Origin: Albifimbria verrucaria
Taxonomy: Eukaryota; Ascomycota; Sordariomycetes; Hypocreales; Stachybotryaceae
NCBI GenBank assembly: GCA_020081605.1
Contig: JAHREC010000062.1
Span: forward strand, 3,343,758-3,407,757
Length of the DNA: 64,000 nt
Direction of reading: 5' to 3'
A program made the translations under genes and the position numbers. How positions within the stretch are numbered: position 1 is the first letter of the stretch; every line of letters begins with the position of its first letter. Below, one piece after another: positions 1 through 31,521 of the stretch. The notes below the pieces were generated by a model. The model did no database searches and was not told where the DNA came from. It saw only the letters and a program-made list of their open reading frames with translations.

Positions 1-1430
1 GGCCCTGGCTCCTATATGTTGATGCTAGGTGTGCTATACTAGCGAGAGTATAGGGATGATTAGCCCTGAGCTTTGTTTGAAAAATCTTCAATACCTGCAG
101 GTTCAGCTGCTCCGTCTCTTCCCACCGGCCTTGGTTACTATACGTCGATGCTAGGTTATTTATACTGATAAGTGTATCCGGATGATCGGCCCCGAGCTTT
201 ATCTTGCGAGTCTCCATCACTTGTACCTGCAGCTTCTCTGCCTTTTTCCACCGGCCTTGGTTGCTATACGTTGATGCTAGGTTAGCTATGCTAGTGAGAG
301 TATAGGGATGATCGGCCCCGAGCTTCGTTTGAAACGTCTTTGATACCTGCAGGTTGAGCTTTTCCGCCTCTTCCCACCGGCCTTGGTTGCTATATATTGA
401 TGCTAGGTTGGCCATGCTAGTGAGTGTATCAGGATGATCGACCCCGAGCTTCTTCTTACGAGTCTCTAGTACTTGTAGATTCAGCTTCTCCGCCTCTTCC
501 CACCGGCCTTGGTTGCTATACGTCAATGCCAGGTTGGCTATATTGGTGAGTGTATGGGGATGATCGACCCCGAGTTTTGTCTGAGAAGTCTCTATCACTT
601 GTATCTCCAGCTTCTCTGCCTCTTCCCACCGGCCTTGGCTCCTATATATTGATGCTAGGTTGGCCATGCTAGTGAGTGTATCAGGATGATCGACCCCGAG
701 CTTCTTCTTACGAGTCTCTAGTACTTGTAGATTCAGCTTTTCCGCCTCTTCCCACCGGCCTTGGTTGCTATATGTTGATGCTAGATTAGCCATGCTAGTG
801 AGTGTATCGGGATGATCGACCCCGAGCTTCTTCTTGCGAGTCTCTATCACTTGCAGGTTCAGCTTCTCCGCCTCTTCCCACCGGCCTTGGTTGCTATACG
901 TCAATGCCAGGTTGGCTATATTGGTGAGTGTATGGGGATGATCGACCCCGAGTTTTGTCTGAGAAGTCTCTATCACTTGTATCTCCAGCTTCTCTGCCTC
1001 TTTCCACCGGCCCTGGCTCCTATATATCGATGCTAGGTTGGCCATGCTAGTGAGTGTATCAGGATGATCGACCCCGAGCTTCTTCTTGCGAGTCTCTATC
1101 ACTTGCAGGTTCAGCTTCTCCGCCTCTTCCCACCGACCTTGGCTGCTATACGTCGATGCTAAATGGGCCATGCTGGTGAGAGTATAGGGATGATCGGCCC
1201 CGAGCTTTATTTGAAAATCCTTCAGTACCTGCAGGTTCAGCTTCTCTGCGTCTTCCCACTGGCCTCGGTTACTATATGTTGATGCCAGGTTACCTATACT
1301 GGTGAGCGTATCGGGATGATCGGCCCCGAGCTTCGTCTTACGAGTCTCCATCACTTGCAGGTCCAGCTTCTCCGCATCTTCCCACCGGCCCTGGTTCCTA
1401 TATATCCACGCTACCATGGCCATAGCCCAC
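1..1430 (-). repeat. Coding TPR array, 126-bp unit, in NLR1
   Basis: A 126-bp unit (42 codons) recurs about eleven times, with the GRWEEAEKL segment at regular spacing (near 124, 250, 376, 502, 628, 754, 880, 1006, 1132, 1258 and 1384). Units encode kinesin-light-chain-like TPRs ending in LGxDHPxTLTSMANLA. There is also a higher-order copy: about 220 bp from position 509 recurs almost unchanged from 887, an offset of 378 bp or three units. Such near identity suggests recent duplication or gene conversion. The frame stays open to the window edge. Confidence 0.9.
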
Positions 1431-3169
1431 AACACCTCTTCATCATCTGCTTCAAATAACTTTTTCTCGCCTTCATCGCTAACACCGATAGCCTCTCTGC
1501 CTCTGCCCCGTTACCTATTTCCATGCAGTACCATGCCGCCCGATATAGCACAGTAGCCCATTCTCGTTGCGAGTCCCGTATCTTCGGTAGATATGCTGAG
1601 GCCGATTGTGCATGCGGAAAAAGCATCCGACATCTAGCCCAGTTCTCATATTTTCCTATCGGCATCTCCTTACAGAGTTTCGTAAGGAACCGATGTCTCC
1701 ACTGCTCTTTCTGTTTATGAAGCTCAAGCCATTCTAGCGTCGCTAACTGTACCAGTCTATGCATCTCAAAGGTACACCCATCTTCGTTCGCAGTAAGGAA
1801 CGAATAGTTCCGTAGCACTAAAACATCATCCTCAAACCCATTATTCTCACTCTTGTCGGGTTGTATCTCTGTGGAGTTATCATCACTCCATTCATTTTTA
1901 TTATCCTCATCTTCAATCTCTATTGTATCTTCGGTTTGTACCGTTCGAAAAGCTAGTTTATTTGTTGGACCTTGATCGCGCAGTAGGATTTCAGGAATAC
2001 CTTGCCGATCGCAGAAGCTCATAAATGAGAGCAAATCTGCCGCTGACCGTCTAACTTGCCGAATATGATCGAACGAGATCTGCCACGTAATCAGGATCGA
2101 ATTCTTCGCGTTCGCATCTCGACGAAGCTTTCCACCTTCATGTCTGAGGAGGCCCGCCTTTTTCGATCGCTGGCCTGGTAGTTATCGAGGTACTGCTTGA
2201 AAGAACATCGGGGCCATCTCTGGGAGATATAAGTAGCTGCCTGGACGATAGCCAGCGGCATATACTCTAGTGAAGTGACGAGTGTAGTAATAAGCTTGAA
2301 TGCATCGTCACTTATAGGCCGACTAAACTTCTTGCCGAACAGGGTTACCGCATCCTTGATATTCATCGGCTCGACGTCGATGATGTCTGCTTCTTCGACG
2401 AGCTCTGATGCTGCGCTCCTGTTCCGCGACGTGATAAGGATCGATCCATGCTGGCAGTGCGGGATGTACGATAGAAGCGGTCGCGATCCGGTGTTCTCAG
2501 CCTCGCCTGCCTGCAACTCACTCCCACCGCTATACCCACCGCTCGAGGACGTTAGGAAACTGGCGTTGTCCAAGTTATCTAGTATCAGCACCCACAGCCC
2601 CTTCGTCTTATCGTGTAGCCAGCCATACACTAGCTGGAATATATTGGCTTTTGGGTTCTGCCGTCCATAGATCTTGGCGCAGTCAGCAATGTCTCGGATA
2701 CTTTGCTCGAAGCGGGCGGCGCTGCTCGCGTGGATCCAGAAGACCCATGTTTGGGGCGACTGCTCTCGGATGCGGTAAGCATATTCAATGGCGAGTTGCG
2801 ATTTGCTGGCCTCTGTTAGTAATGAGATGGTCTGTACAAGGACTAACCTACCCAACGCCACCGAGTCCGACGAGCGCCGTCCGAGACCCGGGCCGTCTGC
2901 ACTTCTGGATGATCTGGTCGATGATGGTCCCTCATCGACGGTGTTCTTGCGGTCGACGAAATCTGGGTCCTGACTAAACGGGATGACGATAGACGGACAC
3001 GGTGGGGTTTCGGCCCGTTCTTCAGGTGGCATATTGATTTAGCTGATCAGTTATTAGACTCCGGCCGAACCTACAACTTACCAAAAGTGGCGTAGTGGTT
3101 AATTGGGCCATTAGCGATGCCGACCTGGAAGCCAGTATTGGCGTGTCCAAAGTTTATTTCGGTTGCCAT
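1..3169 (-). CDS. NLR1: amyloid-motif / NB-ARC / TPR receptor, 3' end outside window
   Basis: This is a STAND-type receptor of the kind that controls programmed cell death and non-self recognition in fungi. Exon 1 (3082-3169) encodes a short glycine-rich N-terminal motif with core GFQVGIANG. The NB-ARC domain follows: Walker A is LVGLGGVGKS, split by a 46-bp intron at 2806-2851, Walker B is near LWVLILDN, and the arginine sensor is ILITSRN. A winged-helix-like linker lies at about 1500-2080, and a 42-residue TPR array then runs off the left edge. The reading frame breaks near 2939-2941, 2159-2163 and 1461-1465, always at a base run, and each break is healed by one added base. I therefore treat the gene as probably intact. 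The first intron (about 3043-3081) is short and its acceptor is uncertain. The gene is divergent from the effector at 3390, which ends in the same motif. The ligand is unknown. Confidence 0.85.
3082..3169 (-). other. N-terminal amyloid-signalling-type motif of NLR1 (exon 1)
   Basis: The first coding exon starts at the ATG at 3169 and encodes about 29 residues. The segment NTGFQVGIANGPINHYATFG is rich in G, N and Q and weakly palindromic around Q-V-G. Fungal NLRs are known to carry such motifs (HRAM, sigma and PP classes), which template folding of the same motif on an effector. I cannot assign the class with certainty; sigma or PP fits best. A GTAAGT donor follows at 3081. Confidence 0.7.
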
Positions 3170-3389
3170 CGTAAAACATTAGCTCCAGACAATCGCGGTA
3201 GGAGCCAACTTTGATGGCAGTTGACCTGTTGCGTAAATGGTCATGGATCAAACGCCTCGCCTTGCCGGTTATATGTTTATCCCTTCCGACCCCGAAAGAG
3301 GGGAAGTGATAAGCCTAAAGATGGCTGTGTTTATTCCTGAGCAGCTTTGTCATCCTATCCACCCCGAATGATCCACGTAACACTCAACA
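3170..3389. promoter_or_regulatory. Shared divergent promoter of NLR1 and HeLo-like effector
   Basis: Only 220 bp separate the two start codons, so the genes probably share control. An AGGGG (STRE-like) element lies at 3299-3303, forming an imperfect inverted repeat with CCCC just upstream, and a GATAAG box follows at about 3308-3313. These short matches are suggestive only. No clear TATA box is seen. Confidence 0.5.
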
Positions 3390-4282
3390 ATGGCAGAACC
3401 TCTTAGCATAGCTGCTAGCATCGTTGGAGTCACTGCTCCAGCTTTACACGGAACAAGACTTCTTATGGAGGTCTTAGGGAGATCAAAGATGCACCGAAGA
3501 CCATTATGCGTCTATCGGACGAAGTCCGCTCAGTTAATGCAGCGTTGAACTTGCTTTATGGTGTGGAAGAGCGAGAGTGGGTATCGCTTGGCACTACTGT
3601 TGCCGAAGAGTCCAAGACGACAATCAGCAACTATAAAAAAGCGTGCGACCTTTTTAAGGCTAATCTTGAACGGTGGACGAAGCACTCGGAGGATGGGAAA
3701 CTAGCATGGCAGGACCGAGCAAATGTAGGATTTTTCAAGAAGACTCAAATCAAAGCTATGTCGGAACAGCTGCAAAATTGCAAGCTCTCGATCAACACCG
3801 TCATCAGCATAGCTACTCTGTACGTTGGTGAAGAATAAATCCTGTTAAGTAGAGAGCAAGCTAATGATGCTTATAGATATAGCTCCGTTCGTAATAGTCA
3901 TTTGACAGAAGAGATAAAGAGGTCTATCTCGGTAAAACAAGACGAAGTCAGCGAGGCTATTATTACTACAGATAATCAACTCGTGGTATTGGAGGACAGG
4001 CTCAAAGACCTTGGACTCAGCAGTGACGAGGAAGAAGAGACTATATCTGCACAAGGCAAAGCTGAGGTAGTACAGCGATTAAAAGACGAATATGATGCGC
4101 TTGATGTATCTCGGAAACTTCTGCAGGAGTTATTGGCTAAATCGCAGGAGGAGTCAGTTGCTAGAGCTGCATTAGGCAGCCAAAATACTTCCACGACGAT
4201 AAGCTTCGGCGAGAAGAACTCAGGCTTCCAGGCAGGGATAATTAATGGGGCTGTTAGTGGCCTGACCTTTGGAGGAAAATGA
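3390..4282 (+). CDS. HeLo-like cell-death effector with C-terminal amyloid motif
   Basis: The N-terminus (MAEPLSIAASIVGVTAPALHG) resembles the HeLo-like/PigL_N family of fungal N-terminal domains, which can act as membrane-active death effectors. It is followed by a helical, coiled-coil-rich body of about 200 residues and a C-terminal tail with GFQAGIING. That tail matches the N-terminal motif of the divergent NLR1. An intron at 3820-3876 (GTACGT donor, GCTAATG branch, TATAG acceptor) joins the two long frames cleanly. The frame breaks once at 3477-3479 (a GGG run), and one added base heals it, so the break may be a sequencing error. The expected length of about 278 residues fits this family. 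By family knowledge, the partner NLR would oligomerise and convert the tail into an amyloid that activates the HeLo-like domain at membranes. This role is inferred from the motif and gene order. Confidence 0.8.
4217..4279 (+). other. C-terminal amyloid motif of the effector, matching NLR1
   Basis: The last 21 codons encode a tail that starts NSGFQAGIINGAVSGLTFGG and ends with one lysine. Aligned with NTGFQVGIANGPINHYATFG of NLR1, positions N, GFQ, G-I, NG and FG agree. The likeness sits at opposite ends of two divergent genes, as in known NLR/effector pairs. Confidence 0.75.
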
Positions 4283-5943: not shown

Positions 5944-5974
5944 TCAAGCGCCCCACCTACATTTTCTCCATAAT
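5449..5974 (-). mobile_element. Remnant of repeat element (LTR-like end motif, two copies)
   Basis: On minus, a motif of the form TTACGGAAAAAGTAGAGGTG followed by GGGCGC occurs near 5597-5628. A close copy, with TTATGG and one gap, sits at 5947-5975, about 350 bp apart in the same direction. The right copy abuts the point where the NLR2 TPR frame stops matching the repeat, so an inserted element probably cut the gene. TG at the start and the long degraded body suggest an LTR, but no target duplication or internal domain was seen. The class is uncertain. Confidence 0.45.
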
Positions 5975-8900
5975 ATAAGCGTATCAGGGTGCTCTAGCCC
6001 AAGCACCTTCTTTCGTCCTTCTAATGCTCGCCAGTGCATTGCCTCTGCCTCTTTATACCTTTGCTGGCCGAAGAGCAAAGATCCAAGTTTACTAACGCTA
6101 GTAAGCGTATCAGGGTGATTTAACCCTAGTACCTTTTCTCTCCCTTTTAGTGCTTGCCGGTGCATTGCTTCTGCCTCCTCACAATTACCCTGGTCTAATA
6201 GCACCGACCCCAGTTGGCTGATACTAGTGAGCGTGTTAGGGTGTTCTTCCCCAAACACCTTCTTTCTTCCTTCTAATGCTTGCCGGTGCATTGCTTCTGC
6301 CTCTTCGTATTTACCCTGGTCTGATAGTAATAACCCAATCTTACTGATACTAATAAGCGTACTCGGATGTTCGAGCCCAAGCACCTTCTTTCTTCCTTCT
6401 AATGCTTGCCAGTGTATTGCTTCTGCCTCTTCGTACTTGCCCTGGTCTAATAGCACCGACCCAAGTTGGCTGATACTAGTGAGCGTATCAGGGTGTTCCA
6501 GCCCAAGCACCTTCTCACTTCCTTCCAGGTCTCGCCGGTGCATTGCTTCTGCCTCCCCATACTTGCCCTGGTCTGATAGCACTGATCCAAGGTTGCTTAT
6601 ACTAGTGAGCGTGTCAGGGTGCTCTACCCCAAGCACCTTCTCCCTTCCTTCTAGTGCTTGCCGGTGTATCCCTTCTGCTTCCTTATATTTACCCTGTCTT
6701 GATAATACTGATCCAAGGGTGCTAATACTAGCAAGCGTATCGGGATACTCTAACCCAAGCACTTTCTATCTTCCTTTTAATGCTTGCTGGTATATTGCTT
6801 CCGCCTCTTTATACTTACCCTGATTTAATAATACCGACCCAAGTTGGCTGATACTAATAAGTGTGTCGGGGTGATCTAACCCAAGCACTTTCTCTCTTCC
6901 TTCCAGTGCTTGCCGGTGTATCATTTCTGCCTCTCTATACTTGCCCTGGCTTGATAATACTGTTCCAAGTTGGTTGATGCTGGTTAGTGTGCCAGGATGT
7001 TCTAGTCCAAGTAGTCTCTCCTTCGCCCCGATCGCATCTCGTATAAAAACTGCCGCCGTTGCATACTCTCCTATATAAAATAGGTACTATCCTGTATTGG
7101 ATGCAATCCTTATCCAATCTAATGTTGCCCTCCTTTCTCCTGTATTATACTCAAGGACCTTCCGCGAGTGCAGAAGGAGCTGCCGACAGTCCGCCCATAT
7201 CTCGTACTTTCCGCTTAGAATTACCTTGGCTAGCATGCATACCGATTCTCTTTTCCACCTGTCTAGCTGACTATTAGCGTCAAGCCATATCCGCATCGAT
7301 AGCTGCACCAGATAATGCATCTCGAGGGACTGCTGGTTAATCTCCATCCGCACTAGGGAAAAACTCAGCAACGGCGCCACGGCGTCTCGCCAGTCCAGCT
7401 GGCTGGACTGGCCTTGCAGTAAGGGTAACAGAATTCCCTGCCTATTAAACATACTCATAAGCGCAAGCAAGTCTGCCGCTACCGGCTATGTCTTCTGGAT
7501 CTGATTAAAAAGATCTTCCACGTTACAATAATCGCATGCCTTATGCTGGGGTCTCGCCGAAGGTCTCTTAGCCCTTCCGCATCCAAGAGACGTGTCTGGT
7601 TTACGTCGCTCATGCAAAAGAGCTCAAGGTAGCTTGAGATCGTCGTAGGAGCTCTTATCTTAATGTAAGCTGAGGCATGGGTGATTGCAAGCGGGATGAA
7701 TTCCAGAGCTTGCATAAGCGCTTTTGCATCGTCTACCTTAGACCCGCTGATGGACACCCGGGTCCTTAGCAACGCCAGTGCATCCTCTACGTCCATCGGC
7801 TCTACTTTAGCAATATTACCGTATATTCCTATAAGGTTGAATACAGCAGTAGAATTATATAAGGTGATAAGGATCGCTCCGTTCAGGGTCTGAGGAAGGG
7901 GTATTGCCAGCGGCTTTTTCTAGCGTATAGCCTCGCTTGCCTGCGCGGTGTCTCCAGGATCCTGGTCAGCGGAGAAGAAAATATCGTTATTATTGGTATT
8001 ATTGAGTACCATAAGCCACCGCCTGTTTCTCTTATCGTAGAGCCAATTATGCACCAGCCATAGTATATCAGCCTTCGGGCTATTGCATCCAGGGAGTTCC
8101 AACTTAGCAGCAATATTACGGTACGCTTGCTTGAATCAAGAAGCATTGCTTGTATACACCTAGAATACCCAGGTCTGTGGGGCGGACTCTCTGACTCGGT
8201 ACGCATACTCTATGGCGATCTGGGACTTCCTGGACAAGTATAAGCCTAACTTGATGCTAATATAATGTATAGAGATGCTTACCCAATACCCCTGAGTCCG
8301 ACGAGGGCCAGCCGGCTGTGGTTCTATAAGGCTGCCTGCTCGAGTTTCTTATGGATCTTTGTTAGGATATCCTCCCAGCCTATGAATATACTGTCTTTTT
8401 AAAACAGGATTATTATAAACGGTTTAGGTCTATTTGATGCTTACACTAGAACCATTATTGTTAGCTATAAGCTAGCTTAGAGATAATTGAGTGGGCTGAA
8501 TCTTGATATAGTATATTTAACAGAAAGGCTGTATATAGAACCGGGCTGCCACCACCTTCAGAGCATCCTGCTTAAACTGCCTAAGCTTATCTCATATACT
8601 AGTATACCCTTCATTATTCCTATTATTAAACTTAATAATCATTGAGTGGTCGGTAGCTAAAGGGATCTTATCCTCCATAGAGTCTAGTAGCTAAAGAAGA
8701 GCTAAGTCTGTATCTACCGCCGTAATAAAGTCGCCTATCCTCCTCCAGTATCTGCTCTTATTATCCTATTATACGTAATTAGCGATATGCTACTGCTATA
8801 TAAAATCGTGAGTATTATATAAACTTAAGCTATCTTGTTTAGCCTGTCTTATAGAAGCTTATCACCTTTCGGTCGTATATAAGATTCTTAAAATCCACTA

Positions 8901-27851: not shown

Positions 27852-30800
27852 CTAAACTCTTCCATCTGCACGGTACGCCCTTGCGAGTTCCTGCTCGGAG
27901 TATATGCGTTCAGGATCCTTCTCATTCAATGTCTCCTTTCGAATTGACACAACGCGTTCCAGTATCTCAATCGCATCTTTGATCCGTCCATCATCGACAT
28001 ATGCCCTTGCGAGGACATGCTCTGTTACGAGTCGGTCATGATCTTTCTCGTTCAGAGTTTCTTTCTCAACCGCCACCACATGTTGGAGGATCGCAATAGC
28101 ATCCTTGGTTCTCCCACTGTTAAGGTATGCCCTAGCAAGTTCATGCTCTGAAGCCAGCCGCTCATGATCCGTCATATCCATTGTCTCGGCCGTCACTGCC
28201 ACCACATGCTCGATTATCCCGATTGCGTCCTCATTCCGTCCGCAGTCAATATATGCCATGGCAAGAGCATGTTCTGATGCTAGACGTTCATCGTCCTTTT
28301 CTTCCAACGTGTCCTTTCGACGTGAAACTACATGCTCGAGTATTTCAATTGCATCCTTGATTTGTGAATTATCAAGATATGCCCTTGCAAGCTCATGTTG
28401 CGAAGTCAACTGCTCCGGGTCCGTCTCGTCAGATATATCTTTCCGAACTGACACTACATGTTCCAGTATGCTAATTGCTTTCTTGATCTGTCGGTTTTCG
28501 ATATAAACACTACCAAGCACTTGCTCTGATGTTAAACGAGATGCATTTTGTTCAGAAAGATGTTTCTGTTTATAGTGACACACCTCCTCATAACATTTCA
28601 TTGCTTCTTTGAATCGACGTTGAGATTCTAGATAATCCCCGACTTGGCTAAATAGATTGTACAGATCATCTGTCTCCGGTTTCTCGTTCTCATAAAGCAC
28701 TCGCAATGCATGCGGAAGATAGTATCCCCATGAATCTCGAGCAGCGTAACTGGTTGAAGACAGGACGTCTCGCAAATGGTGCATGGCATCTTCAATAACT
28801 TGATGTCTTCGGTTCTGTTTCATAACCCATTCTCGCATGGCAAGGTGTACGAGACTGTGCATATCAAAAACATCACTATCCCCTCTGCGAACGAGGAATG
28901 AATATCCGCAAAGGGTGCCAATTGCCCATTCCTGCTCCTCCAGGTCTGTCATGGGTAGTATTGACCGCGGAATCGCTTTCGGCTCGATGCAGGATATGAA
29001 TGATAGTAGAGAGACTGCCAAAGGGTCAGACTTCTCAATCTGATCGAAAGACACTAGCCAGGTTGTTGCCACTGCATTTCGTGAGCCTCGATATCGAGTG
29101 TTGTCCTTGAACTCTCTGCCTAAGATCCTGGCAACATTATTTCCTATTCCTTGTAAGTGTTGTAAATATGCTTGGATCGGTGCCATAGTTTGGTTCAGAT
29201 ATGCTGCAGCCTGCGTAATTGCCAGAGGAAGATAAGCTAATTGCATGAGTAGCTCCTTGACAAGAGTTGTATCGTGAAGCAGTTGCTTTCGAATCAATGA
29301 TTTTTCTAGTAAATGGGATGCCTCTTCTTGTTGCATTCCCTCGATGTCGATAATGTCAACTTGCGCAAATGTTACCCCTATTTGCCGAGATCTGGTGGTT
29401 AGTAAAACCAACCCGTTCTCACTTTCTGGTAAAAACTGGTCTATGCCTGATTCATTCTCGGATCCAAAAACAAGCTCCGGATCGTCAGCATTATCCACAA
29501 TCAACAACCATTTTCCTGCCTCGTTAGAACTTAAGAAGCGGCAAACTAGCTCTTTGAAATTTTCATCATCGTTGCTTCTCTGAAGGCCGAGCTTCTTGGC
29601 GATTTCCACATAGGCCTGCTCAACACTCTCGTTACTGAGAACTGGCACCCAGAAGATCGAATAATCCGGCCGTTTCTCCTTGATGAGATAGGCATAGTAT
29701 AAAGCTATTTGTGTTTTTCCTACTCCGCCGAGTCCAACAAGGGATAATTTGCGGCTGGGTTCCTTGCCGAAAAACTTCGCTTCCAGTGTATTCAATATGG
29801 AGGTACGGCCAGTGAACCGAGAGTTCCTAGTAAGTTGAATATGATAGCATGGTTGGCGAGTTGTGGCTTGGAGACTGTTAGCCGTGTCTGTGGTCGATCA
29901 TCTTTGTACTCACAAGTCAACCCAGAGGTATTCGCAAGCTCTCTATTTTGTTCTTCTGTTTTCCCTGATATTGTAGGTCTTGAAATTGGGCTGCACTCCA
30001 CCTCAGGAGCATCATGACCGCTAGGATTACGTGGCGGTATTTCATGTAAGACTGCCTTGGCATATGAGGCCGCCATTGCTGCTGCATATGGTTGCCATAT
30101 CTTGTTTTTATGCTTGTCGCCGTAGTCACACACCCCTCGGATGACGCTGACTGGTATTCGATTCATAGTCCCTGCAGCCTCCATTTCTAAGCCAATCAGA
30201 CCATACGTATCCCTCAGTTCATTTCTCTTTTGCGCATTCTTTAGTAGTTTGTCGCCCGATCCAATCGGGCCATACCATACCTGAGTGCGTTTCGACTCTG
30301 GCCTTGAATCCGCTCAGCGACTTTTTCAAATTCACTGTCTTGAGCCACATATAAGATGTCGCGGTCCTGACCAGGGTCGGCAAAAGTGCCTGTTGCGTGT
30401 TCCTTGTCACGGATGGCTTCATAATAGGGCAGGAAAATATCGGCGTCGTTTGGTGCCTCAAGTTTAATGCTCCCTATTGCAGCTCGTACAATTGGTTCGG
30501 ACGCACCAAGCGCATGACCTATTCGAAGGGGCTGGAATCCATCTTCAGTCTCCTTGCCGAGGTCATAGGCAATCAGCTCCGCATTATCGCCGTTGGGGAG
30601 AGCAACGAGAACGTCGCCGAGTCGGATATCGCGGGCTGGGCTTTGTGAAAGGTCGGGTAAGCCCGCCGCGACACCCACGAGCAGGCCAAACCATAGGTTG
30701 GGAAAGAATTTCTTTAGCTGACTAGCAAGAGCAGCCGCAGACCCTGTCCCATATTCTTGCCCGGCCGGCAATGTGGCAATGACAATATTATGGCCATATA

Positions 30801-30984
30801 TGCTACCTGCGTGAAATACGTAGTCATCGCCACGGCCCACCAAAAACCGGCCCCGATGTCGTTCGTCCAGTGAGTGCAAGGCAGCCTGAGCCTCAATTTC
30901 CAGAGGAGCAATCCAGGCCACTGCATAGTCACCAGGGTCGAGTTTAAGAGAGCGGTCAGGGTATATTGCTCGCGTTCTAGACAT
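27852..30984 (-). CDS. NLR3: nucleoside-phosphorylase / NB-ARC / TPR protein
   Basis: The N-terminal PNP_UDP-type domain (about 30100-30960) starts with DYAVAWIAPLEIEAQAAL and has the family segment GLEMEAAG near its end. The NB-ARC has Walker A LVGLGGVGKTQIAL, Walker B KWLLIVDNADD, sensor LLTTRSR and LPLAITQAAAYL. Degenerate TPRs of about 42 residues (EHELARAYLDNSQIKDAIEILEHVV type) end the protein. A 47-bp intron at 29867-29913 links head to NB-ARC in phase. The head has one net frameshift near 30310, healed by one base. The apparent start at 31002 is a GTG, so the ATG at 30984 is preferred. In such fungal NLRs the head is thought to be an enzymatic effector released on ligand binding to the TPRs. 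Unlike NLR1 and NLR2, Walker A has no intron. Confidence 0.88.
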
Positions 30985-31521
30985 TTTGGTGCTGAGCGCC
31001 ACATCCCATGAACCCGACAGTAGCGTGTATGGAAGCCATAACTTGTGTGCAAGTCAAGTGACTCCACGTCAGCACGATTACCCTGGCACTAGAGCTCATA
31101 AGTTACAAGACAGTGCTGAGCAGGAACCCCGCACCTGTAACAGGGAGTTTGTTATCCAATAATGATCTAGCAAATCGAGCATGTCCCCTCTGGTTCGAGA
31201 ACCTGCGACACATGGCAGGGTCTAAGATTAGACGAATTCTCGCTATTAATTGGGCATAAGGAAAAGGGCTAATCGCAAAGTTCAGAAGCATTTTTCAGCG
31301 TCGTTATTAGCTAGCCACTTCTATATCTTGGTCTGGCTGTAATTTTGATAGTCATTTGTTGCATTTGTCTCCATCAGCCAATATGACTGCATAAAACACT
31401 GATCTAGACCTCTTGCTTATTGTTTGGTAGATCCTCCACTATCGCTTTACACAAGGTTGTAGACGCTGGATATGGCTACTCTCTGATGTTTCAAATATCA
31501 GATTTCCATTATGCTCGAGAT
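30985..31521. other. Intergenic, presumed NLR3 promoter
   Basis: No gene or repeat is recognised in this 0.5-kb stretch, which lies upstream of NLR3 and downstream of the minus-strand membrane protein. Confidence 0.5.

Follow-up and report, generated by a model that had tools for sequence, protein, structure and literature searches.

A divergent NLR and HeLo-like effector gene pair of probable HELLP/PNT1 type in Albifimbria verrucaria

The divergent gene pair and its shared motif

A 64,000-nucleotide stretch of the Albifimbria verrucaria genome (the window; contig C41 of a 48.4-Mb assembly of 41 contigs, all of which was scanned) carries at its start two divergently transcribed genes, one encoding a NOD-like receptor (NLR) with a C-terminal array of tetratricopeptide repeats (TPRs), and the other a small protein with a HeLo-like head, here called the effector (Table 1). 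The NLR starts with MATEINFGHANTGFQVGIANGPINHYATF, encoded by exon 1, and the effector ends with TISFGEKNSGFQAGIINGAVSGLTFGGK, encoded by its last exon, and these two peptides contain nearly the same motif. A sequence-only reading of the window had proposed that an NLR and an adjoining HeLo-like effector share an amyloid-type motif here, and this is supported by the gene layout, by the match of the head to the Pfam family PF17111 and by the alignment of the motifs.

When the NLR peptide was aligned locally with effector exon 2, the score was 69; shuffling exon 2 20,000 times gave at most 45 and shuffling the NLR peptide 20,000 times at most 48, so that the near-identity claimed for the two motifs held against all 40,000. 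The NLR peptide aligned with the effector head at a score of 22, near the average of 18.5 for the exon-2 shuffles; no further shared part is therefore evident. Additionally, a degenerate DNA pattern of the core occurred three times in the genome, twice in the window and once in an NLR paralogue on contig C21, compared with no occurrence of a control pattern. A looser pattern was found at 19 places versus 5 for the control, and frames were read at nine of these loci (L001-L004, L007, L010, L016-L018); one of them, L004, by eye resembles chorismate synthase, its GIQGGITNG being accidental. The shuffles and the genome scan rule out a chance resemblance of the NLR and effector motifs.

The nucleotide-binding piece of the NLR shares 73% identity with P0165, a relative from Paramyrothecium foliicola in which NB-ARC lies above the cut-off, with a mismatched stretch ahead of the P-loop. 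The TPR array consists of a 126-bp unit in 11.1 copies with 78% matches, that is, about 11 similar TPRs. Judged from these pieces, the NLR combines a nucleotide-binding domain with TPRs, as does the receptor of a HELLP/PNT1-type pair. Splicing of intron 1 yields ...ATF-ERAETPPCPSIV, the counterpart in P0165 being APPERVETPPCPSIV, and at the P-loop, where the probable intron 2 lies, P0165 reads GLGGVGKSQLAIEY.

In the effector, the stretch 3390-3488 shows 73% identity to residues 1-33 of the relative P0004, and the head matches PF17111 with an E-value of 1.8e-8 and 34.5 bits against a cut-off of 27.2, bearing out the HeLo-like head that had been read from the sequence. VATLYSSVRN runs across the position of the effector intron in the relatives P0134 and P0142; an alternative acceptor at 3882, in the same phase and giving ATLSVRN, was dropped for the one at 3876, whose ATLYSSVRN occurs in both. 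Two structure models were built for a HeLo/MLKL fold match, of which the first (46 sequences) had a predicted local distance difference test (pLDDT) score of 61 and no usable match, and the second (121 sequences) a pLDDT of 81. Foldseek returned nothing at E ≤0.001 for either model, with no HET-S HeLo structure among the 50 entries listed. A sequence search of the PDB gave three weak matches with the head profile (E 0.26-0.8) and no match with the motif profile.

Table 1. Features of the gene pair, in window coordinates
Feature	Position	Strand	Remarks
NLR exon 1, encoding the PP-like motif peptide MATEINFGHANTGFQVGIANGPINHYATF	3082..3169	-	phase 1 intron directly after
NLR intron 1, 62 bp, GTAAGT...AAG, phase 1	3020..3081	-	junction resembles P. 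foliicola P0165
Probable NLR intron 2, 46 bp, within P-loop codons (GLGGVG/KSQLAIEY)	2806..2851	-	from manual reading of the sequence
NLR nucleotide-binding piece, open frame	2094..3038	-	NB-ARC 17.4 bits, NACHT 17.2 bits, both below cut-off
NLR middle piece, different frame	1414..2181	-	DUF7779 above cut-off; 78% identity to P0165
NLR C-terminal TPR array, extends beyond the window	2..1510	-	TPR_10, E 2.4e-153, 11 stretches
Divergent intergenic region, 220 bp, start codon to start codon	3170..3389	.	
Effector start piece MAEPLSIAASIVGVTAPALHGTRLLMEV	3390..3473	+	
Effector exon 1, HeLo-like head, frame differs from start piece	3470..3819	+	PF17111
Effector intron, 57 bp, GTACGT...TTATAG, phase 2	3820..3876	+	junction reads SIATLYSSVRNSHLTEEI
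Effector exon 2, encoding an acidic linker and the C-terminal motif	3877..4282	+	stop at 4280-4282
Effector PP-like motif TISFGEKNSGFQAGIINGAVSGLTFGGK	4196..4279	+	

Elsewhere in the window, 5944-8430 holds the remnant of a second NB-ARC/TPR NLR, which is interrupted by stop codons, has its own 126-bp TPR array and shows 30-40% identity to P0165; between it and the effector the segment 5001-6000 is 19% GC. A further NB-ARC/TPR gene is found at 27852-31053 (NB-ARC E 1.4e-13), and the frame upstream of it looks PNP/UDP-phosphorylase-like by eye and matched no Pfam family.

Motif class and relatives

The cores read NTGFQVGIANG in the NLR and NSGFQAGIING in the effector, and both have a GxQxG flanked by Asn and Gly, the core of the Q-centred PP motifs of about 20 residues described for HELLP, SBP and PNT1 proteins (PMC5485727). 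In ascomycetes, the PP/NLR07 group comprises 296 NLR N-termini with PP mostly at positions 5-9, and for 37 of these NLRs similar stretches were reported in the C-termini of neighbouring proteins (PMC9815663). The strict short form of PP is the pseudopalindrome NxGxQxGxN (PMC9815663), to which neither window motif conforms: the left Asn is at -4 and the right Asn at +5, position +4 being Ala in the NLR and Ile in the effector. Furthermore, the Pfam family Ses_B (PF17046; cut-off 23.2 bits), which has served to detect PP (PMC8086366), scored the effector tail at 11.7 bits and gave no match to the NLR peptide; the relative P0134 scored 12.5 bits. Because the right-hand Asn lies one residue further out and Ses_B stays below its cut-off, the motif is filed as PP-like. 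G.Q.G was located in 41 of 43 aligned tails, although in a few of them it may lie outside the motif. At position +5 these 41 have Asn (21 tails), His (7), Ser (6), Thr (5), Gly (1) or Arg (1), whereas 35 have Ile at position +4. The shifted right-hand Asn may explain the sub-threshold Ses_B scores.

A search with effector exon 2 returned 42 proteins, of which 36 keep N.G.Q.G (all except P0128, P0138, P0141, P0144, P0148 and P0149) and 30 keep NSGFQAG. With conservation counted over the rows spanning each column, the commonest residue averaged 0.78 over the 28 motif columns, 0.75 upstream and 0.86 over the 11-residue core; within the effector tails it is the core alone that stands out in conservation. 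A first count had suggested a motif far more conserved than the linker (0.77 vs 0.67), which was discarded as a bias from fragmentary rows. One relative, P0163, has a HELLP-like tail carrying three PP-like copies instead of one.

The NLR search returned a single relative, P0165 (named 'Kinesin light chain'), with the motif at its start, so the NLR-side comparison covers three sequences: the window NLR, the C21 paralogue (core GFQVGIANG) and P0165 (core GFQGGIGNG). The closest named proteins found for both the NLR and the effector tail come from P. foliicola (Hypocreales, Stachybotryaceae), which thus has an NLR with an N-terminal motif in P0165 and an effector tail in P0143 (HJFPF1_10742, a 79-aa HELLP tail with 87% identity to the effector tail over 60% of the query). 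P0165 differs in being nearer to the C21 paralogue than to the window NLR (71-80% in matched pieces). A literature search found no text combining any two of GFQAG, GFQVG and amyloid, and for P. foliicola no title on NLRs was among the matches listed.

A second PP-like cluster, which does fit NxGxQxGxN, was observed at C6:2856222-2861888 (L047, L053). There, a PNP_UDP_1 protein (E 4e-9) ends in NYGAQTGINHGTINN, and its Ses_B score was 23.5 bits, above the cut-off, when scanned with its neighbours and 19.1 bits, below the cut-off, in another scan. About 2 kb from it lies a TPR NLR relative with MASGTNYGSQVGNNYGAINNEF in its first frame. The PNP_UDP_1 tail aligned with the NLR motif at a score of 65, reached by none of 5,000 shuffles. 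Between the two partners lie fragments that look lipase-like by eye, one piece of which was scanned and matched no Pfam family; they carry a possible weak motif tail, whose score was reached by 32 of 5,000 shuffles.

Comparison with known pairs and rival explanations

The window pair closely resembles PNT1/HELLP of Podospora anserina, in which the PP motif, with its GxQxG, is prion-forming and sets off cell death (PMC7885112). There, too, two adjacent genes encode an NB-ARC/TPR NLR with the motif within its first 31 residues and a 271-aa HeLo-like effector that carries the motif C-terminally (PMC7885112). Introns are reported at nt 429-475 of hellp and nt 95-148 of pnt1 (PMC7885112), and the window genes match both phases at nearly the same places, with a phase 1 intron straight after the NLR motif and a phase 2 intron at nt ~430 of the effector. 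The likeness of the motifs is one of class and position; the termini, hand-translated from the primers in PMC7885112, are MDPLSITA and TFGRRG for HELLP and MSDSYRFG for PNT1, compared with MAEPLSIA and LTFGGK for the window effector and MATEINFG for the NLR. PNT1 is reported with one intron, whereas the window NLR probably has a second in its P-loop. The PNT1/HELLP/SBP cluster of Chaetomium globosum likewise combines a HeLo-like effector and an NLR with a common PP motif (PMC5485727); it differs in that the window has no third core-pattern site and hence no lipase partner was seen there. NWD2/HET-S of P. anserina is also an NLR with an adjacent HeLo-type effector and a common amyloid motif, but its HRAM motif consists of two 21-aa repeats forming a beta-solenoid (PMC4518210), and its NLR has WD repeats in place of TPRs (PMC7885112).

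Since domain order, motif positions and two intron phases match P. anserina PNT1/HELLP, the head and motif class are already known. The suggestion in the sequence-only reading that this combination might be new therefore does not stand, the pair having been published as HELLP/PNT1 in C. globosum and P. anserina (PMC7885112, PMC5485727). The departures are small, namely the flanking Asn shifted by one residue and the sub-threshold Ses_B scores.

We regard the two window genes as an NLR amyloid signalosome of HELLP/PNT1 type, with a probability of about 0.85. What the analysis establishes is the gene layout, the above-chance motif, the head family, the intron phases, the tail in relatives and a low ratio of nonsynonymous to synonymous substitution (dN/dS) between two NLR copies. 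By analogy with published pairs (PMC7885112), the NLR probably switches on the effector, a presumed membrane-attacking cell-death protein, through the shared amyloid-type tag. The TPR array would sense a ligand and the nucleotide-binding domain would oligomerise, upon which the packed N-terminal PP-like peptides could fold into a cross-beta seed. This seed would template the matching tail at the C-terminus of the effector, a soluble HeLo-like protein, and the refolding would free the four-helix head to reach the membrane and cause cell death. Ligand sensing, amyloid formation, templating and membrane attack are all carried over from such pairs.

Sigma systems likewise couple a helical-head protein to an NLR (PMC5485727), so the pair might be of the sigma (SesA/HET-eN) or the HRAM class instead of the PP class, which we regard as highly improbable. 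Sigma motifs are described as about 40 residues long with threefold submotifs, mostly at NLR residues 50-99 (PMC5485727, PMC9815663), whereas PP motifs have about 20 residues around GxQxG, mostly at positions 5-9, and the window NLR has a single GxQxG at residues 13-17. The head matches PF17111, with SesA reaching merely E 0.046, for P0004. On length, repeat number and position, the published descriptions of these classes speak against both. A non-amyloid docking motif, or a relic of gene fusion or fission, that templates no fold is nearly as improbable an explanation of the shared peptide. The amyloid behaviour of such motifs is known from other species, which leaves room for this explanation, but the prion-forming motifs of P. 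anserina share the GxQxG core, the Asn/Gly flanks and the terminal placement in each partner (PMC7885112).

A caveat that the sequence-only reading did not mention is that neither window gene is one open frame in the assembly, even allowing for introns. The effector frame is broken near 3473-3488, between start piece and head, and the NLR frame three times, somewhere within about 2960-2851, around 2154-2169 and around 1453-1492. These breaks would be expected if the signalosome had the same origin and both genes were now pseudogenes in this strain, an explanation we hold to be unlikely, though clearly less so than a different motif class or a docking motif. In its favour, the C21 NLR copy is likewise broken, whereas its P. 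foliicola relative P0165 is unbroken, the adjacent NLR remnant has internal stops, and the GC-poor 5-6 kb segment has a repeat-induced point mutation (RIP)-like dinucleotide index of +0.69. Over the pair itself, however, the RIP index in 1-kb steps is -0.45 to +0.09, with no clear RIP signature. In addition, the window and C21 NLRs give a dN/dS of 0.26 (dS 0.38) over 345 of 386 shared codons; the 41 others were excluded because they match P0165 poorly at the local level, and this exclusion lowers dN. Chaperone genes, which are expected to be intact, are also affected in this assembly: contiguous HSP70 matches switch frame without room for an intron four times in three genes, on C15, C8 (twice) and C10 (examples at C8:3626749, C15:4866337 and C10:5393794), and a CCT chaperonin gene on C8 is matched in overlapping pieces. 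Not every gene is affected, since one HSP70 match on C15 is unbroken over profile positions 28-598 (571 positions). Single-base indel errors seem to be present in the assembly, and the frame breaks of the window genes therefore need cautious reading; because the chaperone genes are broken as well, assembly error is likelier than gene death, and is favoured here without proof.

A second receptor and implications for the pathway

The NLR paralogue at C21:107919-110391 (L001, L051) is frame-broken and has a core identical to that of the window NLR. The alignment of the two loci spans the TPRs and runs through the promoter to window position 3394 and no further; homology thus ends at the effector start codon (3390-3392), the divergent promoter being kept with no effector alongside. 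Against P0165, the C21 NLR reaches 98% identity over residues 387-689, 88% over 174-392 and 74% over 23-188 (across a frame break). PF17111 is matched 27 times in the genome, which therefore encodes other HeLo-like heads as well. Searched against the genome, a head relative reached high identity (79% and 73%) in the window alone, its other five of seven matches being at 23-27%, and both matches of a tail relative fell in the window, which points to one clear effector copy. Two NLRs with an identical core and one clear effector suggest that two receptors may share one effector. As a tentative and rather doubtful extension, the unlinked C21 receptor could signal in trans to the single effector via the common PP-like seed, in a branched pathway of a shifted-Asn subtype. 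A single effector activated by different NLRs (PMC5485727) and branched pathways with unlinked genes (PMC7889193) have both been proposed before.

Taken as a HELLP/PNT1-type signalosome, the window pair would add a hypocrealean case to this amyloid pathway and leaves the known picture unchanged. The PP motif of HELLP/PNT1 has been reported to cross-seed in part with the mammalian RHIM (PMC7885112). The A. verrucaria motifs come in receptor and executioner versions, from two receptors, a single clear executioner and another PP-like cluster of the genome, and form a natural series of PP-like motifs in which the residues that set seeding specificity could be sought.
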